NCBI GenBank assembly: GCA_017521805.1
Contig: JAFXDK010000038.1
Span: forward strand, 43,685 to 107,684
Reading direction: 5' to 3'
Origin: Ruminococcus sp.
GTDB lineage: Bacteria; Bacillota; Clostridia; Oscillospirales; Ruminococcaceae
Length of the DNA stretch: 64,000 bases
This document shows positions 3,209 to 28,132 of the stretch, piece by piece (position 1 is the first letter of the stretch; each line of letters begins with the position of its first letter). Position numbers and translations under genes: made by a program. Under the pieces are notes generated by a model that saw nothing but the letters and a program-made list of their open reading frames with translations, did not search any database and was not told the origin of the DNA.

Positions 3209-3790
3209 ATGGAAACTAAATCAATTATGATAGTCGGTGTTGGCGGACAGGGTTCTCTGCTTGCTTCAAGACTTCTGGGAAATGTGCTTCTTGCACAGGG
3301 ATATGATGTAAAAGTAAGCGAAGTTCACGGAATGAGCCAGCGCGGCGGTTCTGTTGTTACATACGTAAAATACGGCGATAAGGTATACTCCCCTGTTGTT
3401 GAAAAGGGCGAGGCTGACGCTGTAATTTCCTTTGAGCTTCTCGAAGCGGCACGCTGTCTGCCATATCTGAAAAAGGGCGGTACTCTTATCACTTCCACAC
3501 AGCAGATTGACCCCATGCCTGTTATTACAGGTGCTATGGAATATCCTGCTGACCTCGTAAGCAAGCTTGCTGAGGCAGGTGCTGATATTACAGCTGTTGA
3601 CGCTCTTTCTCTTGCAGAAGAAGCAGGTACAGCCAAAGCTTCAAACGTTGTTCTTATGGGCGTACTCTCCGCAAAAACAGATTTCCCTGAGGAGCTCTGG
3701 CAGAATGCTCTTGAACAGTGCGTACCTCCAAAATTCCTTGAACTTAACAAAAAGGCATTTGAACTTGGCAGAAATGCTGCTGTAAAGTAA
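3209..3790 (+). CDS. iorB: Indolepyruvate:ferredoxin oxidoreductase, beta subunit
   Basis: A 193-residue gamma-type pyruvate/ketoisovalerate oxidoreductase subunit that completes the IorAB complex. The N-terminus has the signature GVGGQGSLLASRLLG (about residues 10-24). Near residue 45 is the SEVHGMSQRGG segment, which is strongly conserved in IorB proteins. Start ATG follows AAGGAG with 10-base spacing. IorB normally follows iorA directly; here they are separated by three small genes. The same substrate logic (aryl-pyruvate to aryl-acetyl-CoA) is supported by paaK downstream. Confidence 0.95.
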   Translation: METKSIMIVGVGGQGSLLASRLLGNVLLAQGYDVKVSEVHGMSQRGGSVVTYVKYGDKVYSPVVEKGEADAVISFELLEAARCLPYLKKGGTLITSTQQIDPMPVITGAMEYPADLVSKLAEAGADITAVDALSLAEEAGTAKASNVVLMGVLSAKTDFPEELWQNALEQCVPPKFLELNKKAFELGRNAAVK

Positions 3791-3824
3791 AAATAGATTA
3801 CATTTTTGAACGGGAGGGATAACT

Positions 3825-5327
3825 TTGAAAAAGCTTTTAGCGGCGCTTACCCTTTTATCCATGGCAATTTCCTGCACTTCCTGCGGTTTGTATTCAACCT
3901 ACGAAGCAGATGTGGAATTATCTGAAATATCAGGTACTGACGCTCCGACTTCTGACGCTTCAATTTCTACGGAAGCGGAAACGGAAAAGCTTACCGAAGC
4001 TGACCCTACCCGTCAGGAGTGCCACAAAACCATACATAATGAGGAAAAGCCCGAAGTCGTGAAAATATCCTTTGAGGGTGTCTGCTCAGGTGATATCCGC
4101 AGACATGCTAAAGTTGAGGATTTGTATAATATTGATATACTCCACAGCGGAGTTGTGGGACTTGTGGGTATTCCTGTTGAACTGGAATACGATGAAGAAG
4201 TAAAAAATCCTCGTCTGACTTTTACTTATGATACATCTGAGCTGAGAGGTATTCCCGAAAAGAATCTCATAATGCTTCATTATTCCGTGCAAGATGCTTT
4301 TTATAATACCGTTGAGAATTTCAAGCTTGATACGGATAATTGTACTGTATCTGCTGATATTGAGGAGCAGGGAGTATATCTTCTTGCTGACGCTTATCAG
4401 TGGTACGATTGTTGGGGCATTGATGTATCTGAATACGCCTATGAAAGAGATTTAACCCAATACAAGACAGACTGGGAGCGCGAGGAAGATACAGGAAGCA
4501 TTATGGCTCTTGCAAACAAGCAATGGGCTATGGAAAATGCTCCCGATTTCCATGTATCTAACGCGGAACAGCTTGCTTCTGTGGTCTGGTATGTCAACGG
4601 TATAGACGGTAATGCAAATGTAACTCTTGAAAAGGATATTGACCTTTCCGACTACGATTGGAAGCCTATGGGCTGGGGAAAAGGCATGGGCGGCGGATTC
4701 TCGGGAACTGTGGACGGTCAGGGACATACTATCTATGGTATGACCATTATGGAGGATTATCTCCAATCAGGCTTCATCGGCTATGGACTTGGCGTTTCTG
4801 TGAAAAATATCAATTTTGAGGACGCTTATGTTTCATCTACACACTGCACAGGCATTGTAGGCGGTGAACTGTATATGTCCGGTGCATGGGAGAATATTTA
4901 CGTGCAGGGCACTGTTCGCGGCGGAGATGACGACTACGCGGCTATAGTGGGCAGAGAGACTGATATAAATTTCAAGAACTGTTCTGCTGATGTTACTGTA
5001 AACGGTGAGCCTTTCGAGTATCTTTCCTATCGTCAGAAGCGTGAGGCTGAGGTCGAAATCGTTGAAACTTTTACCCTTACCCTGAATGATGATTACACAA
5101 TTACCCGTGATGAACACGAGGGATTTCACAACCTTGGCTGGATGATATTGATGAACGATGAACAGGTTCTCCATAGAAATGCAGAAAACGAACTCGTTCT
5201 CGATACTCATAACTGGGTTAGCGATTCCCCTGCAAAGTATACTATTTATCTTGTGGCTTATATAAACGGCACGTATATCCGTGTAAGCAATGTTATTGAA
5301 TATACGCTGACGGAAAACAACGACTAA
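3825..5327 (+). CDS. Secreted lipoprotein with GLUG-like repeats
   Basis: A 500-residue protein with a lipoprotein signal peptide: Lys-Lys, a hydrophobic stretch, then Thr-Ser-Cys-Gly, with Cys20 as the probable lipidated residue. A Thr/Ser/Glu-rich spacer follows. The middle region (about residues 245-385) contains the pattern GTVDGQGHTIYGM and repeated Gly-Ile-Val-Gly turns, as in GLUG-motif right-handed beta-helix proteins on Gram-positive surfaces. The last ~100 residues look like a separate beta domain. No catalytic site is seen. It lies between iorB and paaK on the same strand (34 and 43 bp gaps), an odd position for a surface protein. Confidence 0.75.
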   Translation: MKKLLAALTLLSMAISCTSCGLYSTYEADVELSEISGTDAPTSDASISTEAETEKLTEADPTRQECHKTIHNEEKPEVVKISFEGVCSGDIRRHAKVEDLYNIDILHSGVVGLVGIPVELEYDEEVKNPRLTFTYDTSELRGIPEKNLIMLHYSVQDAFYNTVENFKLDTDNCTVSADIEEQGVYLLADAYQWYDCWGIDVSEYAYERDLTQYKTDWEREEDTGSIMALANKQWAMENAPDFHVSNAEQLASVVWYVNGIDGNANVTLEKDIDLSDYDWKPMGWGKGMGGGFSGTVDGQGHTIYGMTIMEDYLQSGFIGYGLGVSVKNINFEDAYVSSTHCTGIVGGELYMSGAWENIYVQGTVRGGDDDYAAIVGRETDINFKNCSADVTVNGEPFEYLSYRQKREAEVEIVETFTLTLNDDYTITRDEHEGFHNLGWMILMNDEQVLHRNAENELVLDTHNWVSDSPAKYTIYLVAYINGTYIRVSNVIEYTLTENND

Positions 5328-5370
5328 AATTGACGAAAGTCAATAATTTATAAATAAGGAGATAAAGCCA

Positions 5371-6678
5371 ATGGCAAATTATTGGAATCAGGAAATTGAA
5401 TGTATGTCCTATGAGGATATGAAAAAGCTTCAGAGTGAGCGTCTTGTTGCTCAGGTGAAGCACGTTTACGAAAATGTTGAATATTATCGTAACCTCATGG
5501 ACGAAAAGGGAGTAAAGCCCGAAGATATTCAGTCTGTTGACGACCTTCACAAGCTCCCATTTCTCTCTAAGGCTGACCTCCGTGATGCATACCCCTATGG
5601 ACTTCTTGCTAAGCCCCTCAATGAATGTGTCCGTATTCATTCAACAAGCGGCACTACAGGTAAGCGTGTAGTTGCATTTTATACACAGAATGATATCGAC
5701 CTCTGGGATGACTGCTGTGCAAGAGCTATTGTTGCGGCTGGCGGCACAAAAGACGATGTATGTCAGGTAGCTTACGGCTTCGGACTTTTCACAGGCGGTG
5801 CAGGTCTCAACGGCGGCTCACATAAAGTCGGCTGTCTTACGCTTCCCATGTCAAGCGGAAATACAGACCGTCAGATTGAATTTATGCGCGACCTTGGCTC
5901 AACTATTCTCTGCTGTACTCCCTCATATGCCGCATATATCGGCGAGACACTTCACGAAATGGGACTTACTTCCGATGATATCAGCCTTAAAGCAGGTATT
6001 TTCGGCGCTGAGCCATGGACTGAGGAAATGAGAAAGTCCATTGAAGCTTCTCTCGGTATCAAGGCTTATGATATCTATGGTCTTACAGAAACAAGCGGCC
6101 CCGGTGTTGCTTTTGAGTGCTGTGAGCAGACAGGTATGCATATTAACGAGGATAACTTTATCCCTGAGATTATAAATCCCGATACAGGAGAAGTTCTCCC
6201 TGAGGGCGAAGTGGGCGAGCTTGTATTCACAAGCATCACTAAGGAGGCATTCCCCCTGCTCCGCTACAGAACAAGAGATTTATGCGTACTCAGCCGCAAA
6301 AAGTGCTCCTGCGGACGTACACTCATCAAGATGAGAAAACCCATGGGAAGAAGCGACGACATGCTTATTATCCGCGGTGTAAACGTATTCCCCTCACAGA
6401 TTGAAACTGTACTTATCGAGCAGGGATATTCACCAAACTATCTCATTGAGGTTGACAGAAAGAACAATACAGATACTCTTGATATCAGCGTTGAGATGAA
6501 TCCCGACCAGTTCTCTGATAAGATGAAGGTAATGCAGGAGCAGGAAAAGGCTCTGGCACTTGCTATAAAGACAATGCTGGGAATCAATCCCAAGGTACAC
6601 CTTGTAAGCCCCAAGTCCATTACAAGAAGCGAGGGCAAGGCTGTACGAGTTATCGACAGAAGAAAGCTTCACGATTAA
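5371..6678 (+). CDS. paaK: Phenylacetate-CoA ligase
   Basis: A 435-residue adenylate-forming enzyme that interconverts aryl-acetate plus CoA plus ATP and aryl-acetyl-CoA. It has the AMP-binding signature STSGTTGKRV (about residue 91), YGLTETSGPG near residue 232, and a conserved Cys cluster (Cys-Ser-Cys-Gly) near residue 311 typical of PaaK-like ligases. In anaerobes running IorAB it probably works toward aryl-acetate with ATP gain; that direction is inference. Start ATG has AAGGAG 9 bases upstream. It is followed 15 bp later by an ACT-domain gene, the common iorA-iorB-paaK-ACT order. Confidence 0.95.
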   Translation: MANYWNQEIECMSYEDMKKLQSERLVAQVKHVYENVEYYRNLMDEKGVKPEDIQSVDDLHKLPFLSKADLRDAYPYGLLAKPLNECVRIHSTSGTTGKRVVAFYTQNDIDLWDDCCARAIVAAGGTKDDVCQVAYGFGLFTGGAGLNGGSHKVGCLTLPMSSGNTDRQIEFMRDLGSTILCCTPSYAAYIGETLHEMGLTSDDISLKAGIFGAEPWTEEMRKSIEASLGIKAYDIYGLTETSGPGVAFECCEQTGMHINEDNFIPEIINPDTGEVLPEGEVGELVFTSITKEAFPLLRYRTRDLCVLSRKKCSCGRTLIKMRKPMGRSDDMLIIRGVNVFPSQIETVLIEQGYSPNYLIEVDRKNNTDTLDISVEMNPDQFSDKMKVMQEQEKALALAIKTMLGINPKVHLVSPKSITRSEGKAVRVIDRRKLHD

Positions 6679-6693
6679 AAGGAGGAAAGAACT

Positions 6694-7125
6694 ATGGCAA
6701 ACGCAAAACAGATTTCAGTATTCGTTGACAACAAGCCCAATCAGCTTACAGGCGTTATGGCTCTGCTTAAAGAAAGCAATATCAATGTACGCGCTCTCAG
6801 CCTTGCTGATACGTCCGATTTCGGTATTCTCCGTATGGTTGTAAATGATACGGATAAAGCTGAAAAGGTGCTGAAAAACGCTTCATATGCCGTTACAGTA
6901 ACGGAAATTGTGGCAATTACTATCCCCGATTCCCCTGGACAGCTCAGCCGAGTTCTTGACATCCTCGGCGCTGAAAATGTAAATCTGGAGTATCTCTACG
7001 CATTTACAGGAGCTTCCGACAGGTCTGTTTCCTTTGTTATCCGCGTGGACGATATAAAGCTCGCTTCCGATGCGCTTACAAAGGGCGGTATTATTCAGCT
7101 TACGGAGCAGGACCTTTCGGAATAA
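6694..7125 (+). CDS. Double ACT-domain amino-acid-binding protein
   Basis: A 143-residue cytosolic protein made of two ACT domains (about residues 5-70 and 72-140), each with the beta-alpha-beta start and a Gly-Gln/Gln-Leu loop (NKPNQLTGV and DSPGQLSRV). Such free-standing ACT proteins follow iorAB-paaK in many Clostridia and are thought to sense aromatic amino acids or modulate the enzymes; the ligand is not known from sequence. AGGAGG lies 10 bases before the start. It is the last gene of the operon. Confidence 0.88.
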   Translation: MANAKQISVFVDNKPNQLTGVMALLKESNINVRALSLADTSDFGILRMVVNDTDKAEKVLKNASYAVTVTEIVAITIPDSPGQLSRVLDILGAENVNLEYLYAFTGASDRSVSFVIRVDDIKLASDALTKGGIIQLTEQDLSE

Positions 7126-21374: not shown

Positions 21375-23402
21375 TCAAGCTTTGGTAATTTTTTCTTTAA
21401 GCAGGCAAAGGTCGAACACATCAAGTCGTCCGTCTTTGCACATATCTGCCGCCTGCCAGTCATTCAATACCGCTTCGGAATCTGCAAGCAGCCATTTCTG
21501 TAATGCAACAGCATCAGCAACAGTAACTTTTCCGTCTTTGTTGCAGTCGCCATTTGGGATAATTCCCTTTGTTTTTATATCCACAAAGTTTCTGTTGTAT
21601 TCTTTGGCATATTGCTGTGCTGTAGAATCAACATGACCATATATAACAGTCTTTTCTGGAATTGTAAATTCATCAAGTGCAATCGCAGCTGCATCATTAT
21701 TAATGTAAATATTTTTAAGATTTCCGCATTCATCAAAAGCACACGCGCCAATATTTACAACACTTTCAGGCAGGTCAATTTCTGTCAGTGCACCGCACCC
21801 CTCAAAAGCGCGTTCGTTTATACTGCTGACACCCTCAGGAATTGTAACATTTTTAAGACTCGAACAGCCTGCAAATGCCCAACCGCCAATTGTAGCAACG
21901 CTTTCAGGGATTACAATTTCTTCAATATTTTCACAGTATGAAAAAGTTTCACTTCCCAGAACAAGCAGTGTAGAGGGCAATGTAACCTTTTTAAGCGCTT
22001 TACATCCTGTAAACGCACCTTCATACTGCCCACCGTCTTTAATAGTTAAAACTCCCTCTGGAATATTTATTTCCGGAAGCGAACTACACAACGCAAAAGC
22101 ACTTGCACAAATAGTGGTAACGGTATCAGGTATTGTCACCTTTGTAAGACTTTCACAATATTGAAAAGTTTTATCATTAATTATAGTAACTCCGCTTGGT
22201 ATAACAATAGATTCAAGCTTCTTACAACCTTCAAAGGCATATTCCCCGATTGATGTAACCGTATCGGGTATATCTATGCTGACAATAGCTCTACATTCTG
22301 CAAATGCTCCATTTCCGATTGAAGTTATAGAATCAGGTATTGTAACACTGCTTAAAGCCGAACACTGATAAAACATTTCATCTTCAATAGTTTTAAGTGT
22401 ACTTGGCAGAACTATTTCTGGCAAGCTTTCACACCATGCAAAAGCATTTCTTTCAAGCGTTTTCAGTTTCTTTGGAAGTGTAACAGAAGATAACGACGTA
22501 CATCCATTAAAAGCTTCTTCACCAATACGTTCAACCTTTTCGGGTACTGTTATTTTCTTAAGCTTAGCGCAATCTGCAAACGCCGCCGCACTTATATCAG
22601 TTACGCTGTCTGGAATAGTAATTGATGTCATATTTGAACAGCCTCTGAAACATCCGTCGCCTATACTTTTAAGAGTTGACGGCAATGTAACTTTGGTCAA
22701 ACTTGAACAGTCAGTAAATGGACCGACATAACCGGCACCCATTTCAGAAATTCCGGCTAAAGTTACAACACCCTCTGGAATAACAACACTGGGCAGAGCA
22801 GTACAACTTCCAAAAGCCAATTCCTTAATAGTTGTAACTGAATCAGGAATAGTTACACTAACCAGACTGGAACAACCATTGAGAACACGTCCCTCAATGG
22901 TTTTGAGCCCATTAGGGAAAGTAAATTTACTTATACTTGAACACAACTGAAAAGCGCCGCTTCCAATATAATTAACATTATCCGTAAGCTTTACAGACAC
23001 AAGAGATGAACAACCATCGAAAGCATATTCATGAATTTCTTCAAGATTCTCTGATACAGTAAGAGTAACGATATCTGTATTTCCCTCAAAAGCCAATGCT
23101 CCAATAGCTTTGACTTTTAATTTGTTAATTGTAGCAGGTATGGAAATGGTTGTAGAATCACCGTTGTAGCCTGTAATCACTGCATATTCCTGCGTTAAAA
23201 TCTTATCATTTTCCCAATCATACGTACCATAAATATCGTATGTATAACCGCTGTCGGTCTCGCCGCTTTTCACAACCTCCAAATCAACCGCCGATGCAGT
23301 AATGGAAGTTACAATGCTGGTTCCGGAATAATCTGCCAATGGAACACCTCCGCATATAACGCTCAGTGCAACAATCCACGAGGCAATACTTTTAAATTTC
23401 AT
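21375..23402 (-). CDS. Secreted leucine-rich-repeat (BspA-type) protein with C-terminal dockerin
   Basis: A 675-residue secreted protein: signal peptide (about 1-30), a short N-terminal region, then about twenty BspA/LRR_5 repeats of ~23 residues with the pattern IGxxAFxxCxxLxxVxIPxxVxxI (about residues 85-605). A dockerin follows, with GDCNKDGKVTVADAVALQK and DMCKDGRLDVFDLCLLK as the two Ca2+ loops (about 615-672). The repeat domain should give a curved binding surface; no catalytic residues are seen. The dockerin predicts display on the cellulosome. ATG at 23402 is chosen, 9 bases after GGAG, over an in-frame GTG at 23411. Confidence 0.9.
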   Translation of the reverse strand: MKFKSIASWIVALSVICGGVPLADYSGTSIVTSITASAVDLEVVKSGETDSGYTYDIYGTYDWENDKILTQEYAVITGYNGDSTTISIPATINKLKVKAIGALAFEGNTDIVTLTVSENLEEIHEYAFDGCSSLVSVKLTDNVNYIGSGAFQLCSSISKFTFPNGLKTIEGRVLNGCSSLVSVTIPDSVTTIKELAFGSCTALPSVVIPEGVVTLAGISEMGAGYVGPFTDCSSLTKVTLPSTLKSIGDGCFRGCSNMTSITIPDSVTDISAAAFADCAKLKKITVPEKVERIGEEAFNGCTSLSSVTLPKKLKTLERNAFAWCESLPEIVLPSTLKTIEDEMFYQCSALSSVTIPDSITSIGNGAFAECRAIVSIDIPDTVTSIGEYAFEGCKKLESIVIPSGVTIINDKTFQYCESLTKVTIPDTVTTICASAFALCSSLPEINIPEGVLTIKDGGQYEGAFTGCKALKKVTLPSTLLVLGSETFSYCENIEEIVIPESVATIGGWAFAGCSSLKNVTIPEGVSSINERAFEGCGALTEIDLPESVVNIGACAFDECGNLKNIYINNDAAAIALDEFTIPEKTVIYGHVDSTAQQYAKEYNRNFVDIKTKGIIPNGDCNKDGKVTVADAVALQKWLLADSEAVLNDWQAADMCKDGRLDVFDLCLLKEKITKA

Positions 23403-23450
23403 TAATTTCACTCCTTTCTAATAATACAATCTATAAGATTGACTATAATA

Positions 23451-23657: not shown

Positions 23658-24596
23658 TTATTCAGCAGCTTCCTCAGAAACAGCCTCGTCTGTAGTTTCC
23701 TCAGATGCCTCAGAATCCTCAACTACTTCATCGGAATCCTCAGCAGCTTCGTCCTTGTGGTGACCATGAGGACCCTTGTGAGCAGGCTTCTCGGGAGGTG
23801 TAGGAGGTGTAGGAGGTGCAGGCTTCTCGCCCTCTTCAACAACGGGAGGAGCAGGCTTCTCACCCTCTTCAACAGCAGGAGGAGCAGGCTTCTCACCCTC
23901 CTCAACTACAGGAGGAACGGGCTTTTCAGGCTTTGTGAAGTTGCTTACGCAGAACTCAAACCATGCAGCCTTTGTATCATCGCTGATAAAGCTTGCAGCT
24001 TCAAGGTCAAATGTATCGTTAATCATTGCGATAATCTCAGCCTTATCTGCCTTTTTAGCAGGCTTTACAGCATCATCAGCAACGGGAGGAACAGGCTTCT
24101 CGGGCTCAGCCTCTGTCTCTGTGAGATTTGCAAGGCAGAATTCAAACCATGCAGCCTTAGCGTCGTCACTGATGAAATCAGCAGCCTCAAAATCAAAAGT
24201 GCTGATAATCATTTTTTCAAGCTCAGGCTTGCCGATTTTCTTAGCGGGCTTCTCAGGCTTTTCAGGCTTCTCAGGCTTTTCGGAATCTTCTTCCTCAGTC
24301 TCGCCCTCTTCGCCCTCTGTAGTATTCTCTTCAACCTCAGGCTTCTCGATTTCAGCAGGAGGAACAGGCTTAGCAGGCTTTTCAGCCTCTTCGGAACCCT
24401 CACCCTCAACGATTTCGTCCTCAGCGGATTCGTCATCTGTAGATTCTTCTGTTGTCTCCTCGGTTGTTTCCTCAACAACTACGCTGTCCTCAGCCTTTTC
24501 TTCCTTTGCCTGATTAGCGGCAAATGCTGTAGCGCCTGTAGCAATGGAAAACATGGAAATAGCTGTGATTGCGGCAACGATTTTCTTCTGGTTCAT
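23658..24596 (-). CDS. Secreted EKP-rich protein with two duplicated 45-residue modules
   Basis: A 312-residue secreted, acidic, proline-rich protein of no family that I recognise. A signal peptide ends near Ala-Asn-Gln (about residue 28). An acidic Glu/Thr region leads to EKP repeats. Then come two copies of a module (about residues 137-175 and 190-228) sharing Met-Ile-xx-Thr-Phe-Asp, Glu-Ala-Ala, Phe-Ile-Ser-Asp-Asp and Lys-Ala-Ala-Trp-Phe-Glu-Phe-Cys, each with one Cys. Several (V/A)EEGEKPAPP repeats and a Pro/His/Lys then acidic tail follow. There is no sortase or dockerin signal. Start 24596 has GGAG 9 bases upstream. It has a SigI-like promoter (24658-24689). Confidence 0.85.
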   Translation of the reverse strand: MNQKKIVAAITAISMFSIATGATAFAANQAKEEKAEDSVVVEETTEETTEESTDDESAEDEIVEGEGSEEAEKPAKPVPPAEIEKPEVEENTTEGEEGETEEEDSEKPEKPEKPEKPAKKIGKPELEKMIISTFDFEAADFISDDAKAAWFEFCLANLTETEAEPEKPVPPVADDAVKPAKKADKAEIIAMINDTFDLEAASFISDDTKAAWFEFCVSNFTKPEKPVPPVVEEGEKPAPPAVEEGEKPAPPVVEEGEKPAPPTPPTPPEKPAHKGPHGHHKDEAAEDSDEVVEDSEASEETTDEAVSEEAAE

Positions 24597-24657: not shown

Positions 24658-24689
24658 GTTTACGAAAGCAGATTTTCAAAAACGGGGTA
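24658..24689 (-). promoter_or_regulatory. Candidate SigI-type promoter of the EKP-rich protein gene
   Basis: Minus strand TACCCCG (24689-24683), 18-base spacer, CGTAAAC (24664-24658), 61 bases before the start codon. The same elements and spacing occur before sigI at 28059-28090. SigI promoters in Bacillus and Clostridium have a C-rich -35 and a CGAA/CGTA-like -10. An overlapping TTGAAA-N16-TATAAA could instead be a sigma-A promoter. Confidence 0.55.
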
Positions 24690-24851
24690 TTTCAAAAATT
24701 TTTTTGGTATTTTTTGAAAAAAGTTTTTGATTTTCCAATCAGGGAATACGAATTATTCACAGCAACCTGTGATATTATACAAAGCGATATTGCCGAATTT
24801 TCCATATCTTACAAAATTTACGTTGCATATACTATGCATTGCAATATACGC

Positions 24852-24880
24852 TTGACATATAACTATAGTTGGTATATAAT
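24852..24880 (+). promoter_or_regulatory. Sigma-A promoter of the novel dockerin gene
   Basis: TTGACA (24852-24857), 17-base spacer, TATAAT (24875-24880), a consensus promoter 98 bases before the start codon. The leader (about 24887-24978) contains an SD-like GGAAAGGTGAG followed by a three-codon ATG-AAT-CGT-TAA, possibly accidental. Confidence 0.75.
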
Positions 24881-24978
24881 GTAATTAAGAAAGTATGTAA
24901 TTCCAATTAAGGAAAGGTGAGACCGATGAATCGTTAAATGTGCATATATGATAAAAAATATTAAAAGGAGGACTTCCT

Positions 24979-26208
24979 ATGAAAAAAACAAAAAGATTTT
25001 TAACAGCATTAACTGCCTCCGTTCTTTCGGTTTCTGCGTTAAGTTCTTTTACAGCTTCTGCGGAAAATGAAACACCTGTTTCAAATAATGATTACATAGC
25101 AGAGCAATTGATAAAGGAATTAGACGAATACATGGCAGAAAAAGGCTATGTAAAAGCAAACGAAAAATTTTACCCCCTTTATTTCGAAAGACCTTATTTC
25201 TCACGACTGTATAATCCAAATTCATATCAACTTGCATATTTTGAAGATTATGAAAATCGCCCCGATTGTCCGGGAGTATGGGGGGTTAATGTAGATTCTG
25301 CCTATATTGATTTGTATTGTGAATTTTCTGAGGGAATTTCCACCGACGATATCAACAACTACATCAAGGAAAAACATCCTGAATTTGAAGATAACAAATT
25401 TAACGGTAAAATTTTCCATATAAGAGATTATCGAATACCCGCAAATGATAAAATTGATATTAAAGGTTTAATTGATGAACTTAAAGAAAACAATATGATT
25501 GAAACAGCTGAGTTAAGATATGGAGATATTCAGGAGCGTAGTGGTTATGCAGGTCATCACATGGAACCAATGTCATGGTTCCGACCAACCGAAGTATTTT
25601 CTTCAATTGCAGATGAATTTATTACAACAAAGCAGGATATACTTGATTATTATGCCGCAGGAAATATTGACTGTGAATTTGGTATAATTGTAATTACTGA
25701 AAAATTGCCTGAGGGTGTAGAATATATACCTTTTGGAGATATGTATAATATTGATTACTATAACAAAACAGCAGATTATCATGGATATATACCAATTACT
25801 CCGGAAGAAGCGGCTGAACTTGACAAAGAAATATTTGATGCTATAGAGTTCTTTTCCGCTGTACCACACGAAAACACACTGGAAAATCAGATAGATTTGC
25901 TTTATGAGATAAATAATGATGTTTATATTTATTCCAATGATATTGGTTATGCAGACGGTGGAGGTAGAAACTTGCCCTTGATGACTATTGAAGTTGATGT
26001 TACTAACGCAATCAACGGCGACGCAAACTGCGATAAAAAATTTACAATTGCCGATTCTACAGCAATTCTCCAATCAATAGGCAATCCCGATAAATACGGT
26101 CTCTCTTTAGAGGGCGAATATAATGCCGACTGCTCAGGCACATTTGACGGTGTAACGGCTGCTGATGCTGTTTTCATTCAGAGAAAGCTTGCAAAGGGGA
26201 TAGAATAA
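24979..26208 (+). CDS. Secreted dockerin protein with an unrecognised N-terminal module
   Basis: A 409-residue secreted protein: signal peptide (about residues 1-28, ending Thr-Ala-Ser-Ala-Glu), a ~310-residue Tyr/Asp/Glu-rich module that I cannot match to any glycosidase, CBM or peptidase family, and a C-terminal dockerin. The dockerin begins GDANCDKKFTIADSTAILQS (about residue 345) and has a second loop NADCSGTFDGVTAADAV. It is nearly the same type as the dockerins on the GH48 and GH26 enzymes in this window, so all three should bind the same cohesin class. AAGGAGG is 10 bases upstream. Convergent with rsgI, sharing its terminator. Confidence 0.87.
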   Translation: MKKTKRFLTALTASVLSVSALSSFTASAENETPVSNNDYIAEQLIKELDEYMAEKGYVKANEKFYPLYFERPYFSRLYNPNSYQLAYFEDYENRPDCPGVWGVNVDSAYIDLYCEFSEGISTDDINNYIKEKHPEFEDNKFNGKIFHIRDYRIPANDKIDIKGLIDELKENNMIETAELRYGDIQERSGYAGHHMEPMSWFRPTEVFSSIADEFITTKQDILDYYAAGNIDCEFGIIVITEKLPEGVEYIPFGDMYNIDYYNKTADYHGYIPITPEEAAELDKEIFDAIEFFSAVPHENTLENQIDLLYEINNDVYIYSNDIGYADGGGRNLPLMTIEVDVTNAINGDANCDKKFTIADSTAILQSIGNPDKYGLSLEGEYNADCSGTFDGVTAADAVFIQRKLAKGIE

Positions 26209-26221
26209 ATAAGAATAATAC

Positions 26222-26247
26222 TAAAGGGAGCGAAATCGCTCCCTTTA
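26222..26247. terminator. Bidirectional terminator between dockerin gene and rsgI
   Basis: AAAGGGAGCG (26223-26232) and CGCTCCCTTT (26237-26246) form a stem flanked by A- and T-rich bases, serving both converging genes. Confidence 0.75.
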
Positions 26248-26249
26248 TA

Positions 26250-27317
26250 TTATATATCCTCTTTTTTCACAAAATCTGTTTTCGGTAATTCTTTATGTAC
26301 CTGCTCCTTCAGCGGAACTTCCGCATTCCCCTCAGCAGCTTCCCTGTTATGATGAGGCAAAACAGGCTTTTCATTACCTGTATCATCCTTATCATGCTTT
26401 GCAGGTTTTTCATTCATATCGGGAGCTTGCGGCGGTACAGGCTTCTCTCCCTCAATTAAAGGAATATCAGCAACGGGCGGAACAACTTCATCAGGAACAG
26501 GATTTCCCTGAGGTTCCTTTTTATCATTCAGAGATTCCTTATCTGCATTAACCGGAGGAACAGGAGCAGCCGCCGGCTCGCTTACCGCAGGCTTGACCTC
26601 ATCATGCTTATGGGCAGGTGCAGTCGCTGTTGTCACAGGTGGTGCAGGAGCCTTATCATTTTTATTATCCTTGATATTCTCTGCTTTATTTTTTTCATGC
26701 AAAGGTATGTCCTTATCCTTTTCGGGAGTTTTCACCTTATCGTGTTTTCCAGCCTTGCCGTCGTGGATATTAACTTTTAAATCAAGCTTAGGCAGTTCAT
26801 TTTCAAGCTCCGTGCGCAGAGAATCTGTTTTTGCAGTGTCACTGCCGGAGACGTAAACATCAACGGTATCACCATTTGAAATATGCCCGTCAGAAATTTC
26901 CGTCTGCAAAATCTCATTGGCGGCAGTCAGCTTATCCATACCCTTTATATCGGTTTTTTCAATAATTTCCTTGCCGTAGTCGGTATCGCTTGTAAGGCGA
27001 ATAACCTTGCCTGTCTTGTTCAGCTCCATACTTATAGCCGAATCAGAAGTAATCGTCACAACAGAGTATGTTTTCAGATTCTGAGCATAATAAGAATATC
27101 CCATACCTGTAATAATCGCAACACAAGCCGCCGCTGCTGCTATAACCTTTATAACGGCAGTAATATTTCTGTTATCATTTCTGTCATTAGTCATAATAAC
27201 AGGATTAATAATTATCTGACCGACTTCAAATCCTTGATTTGCCGCAAATACAAATTTTGATTCCTCGTCCATAAGAACCGCATAGCCCTTACAACATTGC
27301 ATAACGACGTATTTCAA
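26250..27317 (-). CDS. rsgI: RsgI-type anti-sigma-I factor
   Basis: A 355-residue single-pass membrane protein. The N-terminal ~45 residues (KGYAVLMDEESKFVFA...FEVGQII) match the RsgI anti-sigma domain. A membrane helix spans about residues 52-76. A ~110-residue extracytoplasmic domain (TYSVVTITSDSAISMELN onward) is followed by ~150 residues of Lys/Pro/Asp-rich, probably disordered ectodomain with EKPVPP and EKPVLP motifs. RsgI holds SigI at the membrane until an outside signal triggers proteolysis. The usual Asn-Pro cleavage pair seems replaced by Asp-Ser. No CBM or GH module is present. The TTG start overlaps the sigI stop (TTGA), implying coupling; ATG at 27302 is the alternative. Confidence 0.85.
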   Translation of the reverse strand: MKYVVMQCCKGYAVLMDEESKFVFAANQGFEVGQIIINPVIMTNDRNDNRNITAVIKVIAAAAACVAIITGMGYSYYAQNLKTYSVVTITSDSAISMELNKTGKVIRLTSDTDYGKEIIEKTDIKGMDKLTAANEILQTEISDGHISNGDTVDVYVSGSDTAKTDSLRTELENELPKLDLKVNIHDGKAGKHDKVKTPEKDKDIPLHEKNKAENIKDNKNDKAPAPPVTTATAPAHKHDEVKPAVSEPAAAPVPPVNADKESLNDKKEPQGNPVPDEVVPPVADIPLIEGEKPVPPQAPDMNEKPAKHDKDDTGNEKPVLPHHNREAAEGNAEVPLKEQVHKELPKTDFVKKEDI

Positions 27318-28036
27318 TTATTTTCACCGCCTTTCAATACCTGCATAATATGTCCTCTCATAATCTCGTAGCCGTTTGTACAGATAAGCAGCATAGCCAC
27401 AAGATATTTTCTGTGCCGTTCAAGAGTTTTTCTTTCAGCTCCTGTGCCCTCCGCAAGAGCCGCAATGGGAACTCTCTTAGTGCGCAAAAAATCCTCCAGT
27501 ATCGTTGGATTATTTCTTGCATAGCGTACAGCCCGTCCGCATATTTCAAGAGTTCTCTGCTGTTTTGGGGAATTATCAGCTATATCTGTAAATGACACGC
27601 CGAAATCCGCCATTTGAACAGAAAGCTCAGCAATTTCCTGCTTTGTGGCTTCACGGGCTTCTATTTCGCCGTAGTCATCACGGGTATCGCTGATAGAATC
27701 TATAAGTTCAGTTTTTTCATCATCTGATGTATATAAAGAAACGTTTCCGCTGTTTCTTTTTTCCCTGCGATAATTATCTATGAGGCGATTTTTTATATGC
27801 ATTGCTGCAAATTTCAGAAATGAGCCCCGCAGCTTTGAATAATTTCGTATAGCCTCATAAAAGGCAAACATAGCAATACTCAGTTCATCATCGCTCTTAT
27901 CAGGGGAACGATTAAGAAACTTCGCCGTTTCTGCCTTTATAAATGGCATATAATCCGATATAAGCTTATCGGCTTCACCGCTGTCAGTTTTTGCCAGATT
28001 AACTCTGGAAATAATCTCATGAGTTTCGGAGTTCAT
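27314..28036 (-). CDS. sigI: RNA polymerase sigma-I factor
   Basis: A 240-residue sigma factor. The sigma region 2 is visible as DELSIAMFAFYEAIRNY...GSFLKFAAMHIKNRLIDNYRREKR (about residues 53-100), the characteristic SigI version. A C-terminal SigI-specific helical region with RKTLERHRKYLVAMLLI near residue 210 replaces region 4. In Clostridium thermocellum, SigI factors drive cellulosome and polysaccharide-related genes under RsgI control. The start at 28036 follows GGAGG by 7 bases; a longer frame to 28132 would overlap its own promoters. Co-translated with rsgI. Confidence 0.9.
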   Translation of the reverse strand: MNSETHEIISRVNLAKTDSGEADKLISDYMPFIKAETAKFLNRSPDKSDDELSIAMFAFYEAIRNYSKLRGSFLKFAAMHIKNRLIDNYRREKRNSGNVSLYTSDDEKTELIDSISDTRDDYGEIEAREATKQEIAELSVQMADFGVSFTDIADNSPKQQRTLEICGRAVRYARNNPTILEDFLRTKRVPIAALAEGTGAERKTLERHRKYLVAMLLICTNGYEIMRGHIMQVLKGGENN

Positions 28037-28058
28037 TTCACACCTCCTCTTATATATA

Positions 28059-28090
28059 GTATACGCAGAAAATTTTGAATTTTCGGGGTA
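28059..28090 (-). promoter_or_regulatory. Candidate SigI-type autoregulatory promoter of sigI-rsgI
   Basis: Minus strand TACCCCG (28090-28084), 18-base spacer, CGTATAC (28065-28059), 22 bases before the sigI start codon. Same layout as at 24658-24689. SigI autoregulation is established in Bacillus and C. thermocellum; here it is inferred. Confidence 0.6.
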
Positions 28091-28102
28091 TCTACTATAC
28101 AT

Positions 28103-28132
28103 ATTATATAATACTTTCTCAACCTTTGTCAA
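28103..28132 (-). promoter_or_regulatory. Sigma-A promoter of sigI-rsgI
   Basis: Minus strand TTGACA (28132-28127), 18-base spacer, TATAAT (28108-28103), just upstream of the SigI-type element, giving a tandem basal plus inducible arrangement. Confidence 0.65.

Follow-up and report, generated by a model that had tools for sequence, protein, structure and literature searches.

Which genes are controlled by the sigma-I type factor encoded in a 64,000-nucleotide stretch of a Ruminococcus sp. genome (GCA_017521805.1, contig JAFXDK010000038.1, positions 43,685 to 107,684; hereafter the window), and is its own gene among them? The question is raised by a bipartite element, TACCCCG-N18-CGTAWAC, found ahead of the sigma factor gene sigI and ahead of a gene for a secreted protein rich in glutamate, lysine and proline (E/K/P; hereafter the EKP protein). 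A sequence-only reading of this DNA had claimed near-identical boxes at an identical 18-base spacing, and boxes and spacing are exact at both minus-strand sites. Judged from the comparisons below, it is very probable that SigI directly controls both promoters, that of sigI-rsgI and that of the EKP gene, and the predicted sigma-I regulon of these rumen Ruminococcus bacteria appears to be compact, with one sigma factor driving little beyond its own sensor operon and one secreted protein.

The source genome (2.54 Mb in 112 contigs, ~91% complete) contains two copies of TACCCCG-N18-CGTAWAC, one before sigI and one before the EKP gene, ending 22 nt and 61 nt from the respective ATG codons (28036 and 24596), while 0.024 exact copies per genome are expected by chance from the base composition of the window. 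A whole-genome scan with ACCCCG-N16-20-CGTA returned three matches, namely both sites and one other, which was dropped as a promoter as it lies inside a 716-codon frame and has a different spacing. With an extended pattern of fixed spacing and up to three mismatches there are six matches in the genome, both sites (0 and 1 mismatch) plus four with 3 mismatches each (reversed control, five matches); no further copy at the same spacing within two mismatches was found in this whole-genome scan. In the window, up to three mismatches are tolerated at four places, two of them exact, vs a shuffle mean of 3.9; such loose matches being at shuffle level, exactness alone is informative, and the case is built on exactness together with conservation. 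A regulon of cellulosome or surface genes, which the sequence-only reading had envisaged, was not found in the source genome, where the site stands at two places only and the dockerin-like gene between rsgI and the EKP gene has none.

Conservation was assessed in 60 genomes of the same genus drawn from a larger group, of which 34 carry a sigI orthologue and 26 do not. The strict pattern TACCCC-N18-20-CGTAWWCT gave 52 matches in 29 of the 60 genomes, compared with four for the reversed pattern used as control; by gene context, 24 of these lie before sigI, 18 before EKP genes (one of them at a contig end, with the gene itself not seen) and 10 elsewhere. The motif is present in 28 of 34 sigI-positive vs 1 of 26 sigI-negative genomes (Fisher 3e-10), and the EKP protein (E<=1e-5) in 23 of 34 vs 0 of 26 (Fisher 1.4e-8). 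A relaxed form of the site occurs upstream of sigI at 30 of the 34 loci; at one of the four loci lacking it, hardly any upstream sequence is available. When weaker homologues and direct reading of contigs are included, a site-preceded secreted counterpart is seen in 30 of the 34 sigI-positive genomes: 22 are downstream of rsgI (including that of G015, which is not an E/K/P-rich homologue), three are in divergent gene order (G011, G013 and G042) and five were read separately (G043, G038, G023, G032 and G037). In G043, G038 and G032 the counterpart lies on a different contig from sigI despite long sigI contigs; that of G037 is likewise on a non-sigI contig, the sigI contig there being just 3 kb. 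Among the named loci, which are the best 80 of 136 and overlap with the 60 genomes, the strict site precedes sigI at 61 (L176 and L180 in addition to 59 identified by label) and an EKP gene at 35. At the level of predicted elements, the comparison thus establishes two conserved promoters, nearly confined to sigI-positive genomes, and a near-constant second target. The proposals that sigI is autoregulated and that the EKP gene is a direct SigI target are both strongly supported by motif conservation and co-distribution with sigI, and the latter also by retention of the site at EKP copies distant from sigI.

SigI exceeds the Sigma70_r2 cut-off in a Pfam search, and the profile of its orthologues matches the Clostridium thermocellum SigI6 chain (chain residues 20-242, E 9.4e-26), a match covering positions 8-229 of the 240 in SigI, as well as the SigI1 piece 6ivu (E 2.9e-11). 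Sigma region 2 and a SigI-type C-terminal domain are both recognised in this way. The window's RsgI contains an RsgI_M domain (PF23750, 35.8 bits vs a cut-off of 25.3), which is matched in 20 of 20 members of the RsgI alignment at E<=0.1; at the same threshold the RsgI_N inhibitory domain is recovered in 19 of the 20 (best 3.4e-5), the window's RsgI not being among them. Pfam and profile searches gave no match to a carbohydrate-binding family in RsgI. The genome has one strong match each for sigI and rsgI, with weaker matches to two sigma-like proteins (E 1.4e-6 and 0.07) and a sub-cut-off RsgI_M (E 0.19). All 34 same-genus loci have an rsgI homologue 3' of sigI, and at 80 of 80 named loci sigI has a neighbouring open frame of fitting size, counted by position and size. 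The source genome also encodes a site-2 protease family member; so do 14 of 14 control genomes, and its presence therefore lends weak support.

The consensus, derived from the sites with the commonest spacing (56 before sigI and 36 before EKP genes), reads T-ACCCC-R-Y-TTTT, followed by T-N-CGTA-WWC-T; since ACCCC, CGTA, WW and C were preset in the search, independent evidence comes only from the T tract and the remaining letters. With 18-20 bases permitted, ACCCC and CGTA are 19 bases apart in 56 of 62 sigI sites and 36 of 36 EKP sites. The assignment of a C-rich -35 and a CGxA -10 to SigI agrees with published sigma-I promoters: the cited sections describe a CGWA -10 element (PMC10575876) and, in C. 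thermocellum, a -35 that ends 3' in an A tract and a -10 with CGAA or CGTA (PMC6056542). After the C box comes AAAA at the sigI site of the window; the EKP site has TTTT there, and most other sites are T-rich. The histidine with which SigI6 is described as entering the minor groove (cited section of PMC10575876) aligns with a glutamine here, Q159, which is invariant in 22 of 22 orthologues, and the histidine-to-glutamine and A-tract-to-T-tract changes may be linked. The sequence-only reading had allowed that overlapping sigma-A-like boxes are used instead, which applies in part, and to one promoter type only: a perfect sigma-A promoter stands 12 nt upstream of the SigI-type site of sigI (Table 1). 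Counting up to two mismatches, such promoters occur at 18 of 61 sigI promoters vs 3% in base shuffles, and at 0 of 36 EKP promoters vs 4.6% in shuffles. Hence sigI is probably served by tandem promoters, a basal sigma-A and an autoregulated sigma-I one, and the EKP gene, having no sigma-A promoter, would be dependent on SigI.

Table 1. Predicted features of the sigI locus, numbered from the first letter of the window
Feature	Position	Strand	Remarks
SigI-type promoter of sigI-rsgI	28059..28090	-	TACCCCG-N18-CGTATAC; AAAA 3' of the C box; site kept at sigI of relatives
SigI-type promoter of EKP gene	24658..24689	-	TACCCCG-TTTTT...-CGTAAAC; boxes 18 bases apart
Consensus sigma-A promoter	28103..28132	-	TTGACA-N18-TATAAT, 12/12 matches; probable basal promoter
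sigI	27314..28036	-	Sigma-I type factor, 240 residues; sigma region 2 match; profile match to solved SigI6/SigI1
rsgI	26250..27317	-	Membrane anti-sigma factor, TTG start; RsgI_M lacking the N-P motif, then E/K/P-rich, disordered-looking tail
Terminator-like hairpin 3' of rsgI	26222..26247		Scored on both strands
EKP gene	23658..24596	-	Secreted E/K/P-rich protein, 312 residues; signal-peptide-like N-terminus, then an acidic linker, two small helical units (about residues 123-158 and 185-220) and E/K/P-rich repeats

A comparable second target is encoded in sister genera. In a scan of 197 genomes of the family, the strict pattern gave 26 matches in 22 genomes and the reversed control about 30, and it was set aside as a family-wide signal, the whole-scan matches being at background. 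Examined in their gene context, the matches preceding sigI or lipoproteins with RsgI_M were taken further; they show that sister genera repeat the order sigI-rsgI-[site]-lipoprotein. These lipoproteins contain RsgI_M (3 of 3 pieces over the cut-off, 13 of 13 at E<=0.001), PepSY in 10 of 13 and, in many, an acidic repeat tail, and the RsgI and the lipoprotein of one genome often bear like repeats (TDYGPNNDGVTDY in L269, GDSLYDDGDSDYDD in L272). By hhalign, the RsgI_M of RsgI is related to that of the lipoprotein (96.6%, E 5e-10). A SigI match at E<=1e-20 is present in 30 of the 197 genomes and one at E<1e-74 in 22, the window's and 21 others, the next being at 1.7e-42. At E<1e-25, a threshold chosen after seeing the results, the lipoprotein profile recovers exactly those 21 other genomes and 0 of the 167 sigI-negative ones (Fisher 1e-21); at least two sigI-negative genomes (G163 and G202) have weaker matches that overlap the RsgI_M part, and PepSY-only matches are widespread. 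The relaxed site was found before the lipoprotein in 17 of the 21 genomes, with none in G206, G139 and G134, and the lipoprotein contig of G170 left out. The same arrangement is seen in two metagenome-assembled genomes labelled Lachnospiraceae (L220 and L221). From gene order and promoter, the lipoprotein's place in the Ruminococcus flavefaciens group is, as predicted here, occupied by the EKP protein. Profile comparison aligned the EKP protein with the lipoproteins over the signal-peptide region only and gave no meaningful alignment with RsgI; descent of the small EKP domains from RsgI_M is thus unsupported by it.

The N-P autocleavage motif of RsgI_M is distributed along the same divide. None of the 34 genus RsgIs carries it; in the family's other genera 26 of 26 RsgIs have it, counting any N-P in residues 76-125, and so do 16 of 16 lipoproteins scored. 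The position of the pair was seen in the alignment to chain 8t9n. The self-cleavage motif is also described as lacking in C. thermocellum RsgI8 (cited section of PMC12203970). This constitutes a natural comparison, in that the sensor's autocleavage motif and the partner's folded copy are missing together.

The tails of RsgI and of its target were compared over the last 110 residues in 35 RsgI-target pairs, three of 38 having been dropped as cut-off or doubtful. Similarity within genomes exceeds that between genomes by two measures, with 0 of 20000 permutations reaching it by either for all 35 pairs, 1 and 0 for the 13 pairs outside the genus, and 9 and 25 for the 22 genus pairs (165 and 243 when the odd member L125 is removed); in the L293 and L297 pairs the tails have no common 3-mers. 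Among all genes of a locus, the target's tail matched the RsgI tail best in 30 of 38 cases, vs 4.2 expected. BLASTP detected tail similarity in 32 of 38 pairs, with generous E-values as low-complexity correction was not applied, and BLASTN in 14 of 38. E/K/P-rich windows occur in 46 of 474 genes at 41 genus loci, and the N-termini of all 46 are RsgI- or EKP-like, so this composition is not general at these loci. Tail types shift together from lineage to lineage. In L125 (G015), a divergent genus member, the RsgI tail is rich not in E/K/P but in aromatic and acidic residues; its site-preceded target has, by eye, DWS-like stretches in common with that tail, and BLASTP gave no match between them.

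The window's EKP protein itself matches no Pfam family at E<=0.1 and gives far sub-cut-off matches only in NCBIfam, and a search of the PDB with its profile returned weak matches confined to the first 38 residues. Its AlphaFold2 model is mostly of low confidence (mean predicted local distance difference test score, pLDDT, of 53), with two small helical units at about residues 121-160 and 181-220 (block pLDDT 71-87). Between rsgI and the EKP gene, at 24979-26208 on the plus strand, lies a gene for a secreted protein with a C-terminus that is dockerin-like by eye and no Pfam match; a perfect sigma-A promoter of its own lies at 24852-24880, and it has no SigI site. At 21375-23411 on the minus strand is the gene of a BspA-type leucine-rich repeat protein that carries a type I dockerin at its C-terminus.

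These contextual connections can be assembled into a putative circuit. By analogy with its family, RsgI, with its extracytoplasmic RsgI_M and long E/K/P-rich tail, would hold SigI inactive until its outside part registers a signal, upon which RsgI would presumably be destroyed by proteolysis. Freed SigI would then start transcription at T-ACCCC-R-Y-TTTT-N-CGTA-WWC-T promoters, those of its own operon, additionally served by the basal sigma-A promoter, and of one secreted-protein gene. The secreted protein might act where the RsgI tail acts, providing feedback by competing with or satisfying the sensor. Put more generally, and only tentatively, this SigI branch might control a dedicated secreted sensor mimic, which is an RsgI_M (SEAL-like) lipoprotein, often with an RsgI-type tail, or in the R. 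flavefaciens group a protein with an E/K/P-rich tail instead; the mimic would occupy the site, ligand or protease of the RsgI ectodomain, so that the cell measures the amount of tail on its surface. The recurrent resemblance of the second SigI target to the RsgI ectodomain hints at such a self-tuning surface-sensing circuit, and a near-constant co-regulated partner with the sensor's outside parts offers a direct handle on RsgI sensing.

Several observations weigh against the reading of the two sites as SigI promoters with a sensor-like second target. SigI scores below the curated cut-offs of the NCBI SigI models, which are its best NCBIfam matches (NF006178, E 1.5e-52, 178.5 bits vs 306; TIGR02895, 158.4 bits vs 185). 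The ten strict genus matches elsewhere lie in nine genomes, one of them sigI-negative; therefore, either the regulon does not always have two targets or some matches are due to chance. Ancestry partly confounds the association across the genus, because the sigI-negative genomes may be separate clades. Some sites are degenerate, the C box being changed in G042; the EKP gene of G045 has no recognisable site; no counterpart is seen in G017 and G020, where the contig ends after rsgI; and the site of G057 sits at a contig end. Within the genus, an RsgI tail matches the tail of its own target better than the nearest relative's in just 31 of 59 cases, so that tail matching there is explained by ancestry and the significant permutation tests can reflect lineage; tail co-evolution finer than ancestry was accordingly not found within the genus. 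As to the sites themselves, the frequency of loose matches in the window is what would be expected of a chance pair of similar sequences, but such a pair is already refuted by the conservation of the arrangement, which recurs in dozens of genomes, and the small number of exact copies expected leaves it a negligible probability. It is also quite improbable that the element is not a sigma-I promoter but an operator for some other regulator or a piece of a sigma-A promoter: the neighbouring sigma-A promoter at sigI, and its equivalents at other sigI promoters, would accommodate this, but they are missing at EKP promoters, and the near-fixed spacing, the fit to published sigma-I boxes and the near absence of the motif where sigI is lacking all favour recognition by SigI.

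The alternative that has to be taken most seriously accepts direct SigI control of the EKP gene and departs solely in the last, conjectural step: the EKP protein would be an ordinary wall or surface effector, its likeness to the RsgI tail arising from shared location or lineage, with no feedback. We regard this as somewhat the better bet. It accounts for the genus-level tail result and for the EKP protein having, in profile comparison, no domain in common with RsgI or the lipoproteins; the BLASTN similarity in part of the tail pairs makes local gene conversion possible, and the sigma-I pathway of Bacillus subtilis is described as driving wall-growth proteins (cited section of PMC10128001). Set against it are the limitation of E/K/P-rich composition to RsgI- and EKP-like proteins, the RsgI_M borne by the sister-genus target, and the joint change of tail types between lineages. 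Direct control of both promoters by SigI is common to either view; that the second target is a feedback mimic of the RsgI sensor is, from these comparisons, a rather doubtful proposal, a plain surface effector being at least as likely.

The closest known systems share parts of this arrangement, here compared as far as the cited sections describe them. The C. thermocellum SigI/RsgI pairs (PMC6056542, PMC10575876, PMC12203970) have a SigI related over nearly the whole length, the sigI-rsgI order, published autoregulation (predicted in Ruminococcus), a C-rich -35, a CGWA -10 and a periplasmic RsgI_M domain. They differ in number, eight or nine named pairs vs one in the Ruminococcus genome; in their RsgIs, as no carbohydrate-binding family was matched and no N-P autocleavage motif is present in Ruminococcus; in the A tract after the C box, in contrast to the T tract of most Ruminococcus promoters; and in their targets, which are cellulosome enzymes and not a secreted tail protein. 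RsgI8 resembles the Ruminococcus RsgI in having neither the self-cleavage motif nor a distinct carbohydrate-binding domain, whereas no tail-matched secreted partner is mentioned for it in the cited section (PMC12203970). In B. subtilis (PMC10128001 and PMC11175481, which cite Brunet 2022) the outside region of RsgI is disordered and a proposed sensor of wall defects, and the membrane protease RasP acts in the pathway; the named targets there are mreBH and lytE, and the cited sections mention no secreted RsgI-like partner. Dedicated RsgI suites are ascribed to Acetivibrio-type cellulosomes only in the cited section of PMC11557425. Searches of the open literature, with subscription papers mostly outside this scope, listed no paper whose title or abstract opening describes such a co-regulated secreted partner. 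The locus bears on how an RsgI without carbohydrate-binding modules senses and on what disordered sensor tails do.

A few further SigI-type sites were observed in the genus. In L126 (G011) two of them stand back to back in one intergenic stretch, 5946(-) and 6051(+), facing genes named by eye as VTC-like (6167-6949) and as a dockerin-bearing secreted protein (3599-5569); both might be additional SigI targets, with a link to the cellulosome. Three genomes (L127:5841, L128:5685 and L129:6439) have a similar site that no clear gene follows. The one read of these, in L129, runs in antisense orientation into the 3' end of a gene that is uvrC-like by eye, and a SigI-driven antisense RNA is possible at such a site. 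Finally, at L103:15502(+), in G007, a SigI-type site precedes a gene for a lipoprotein-like product of 218 residues.

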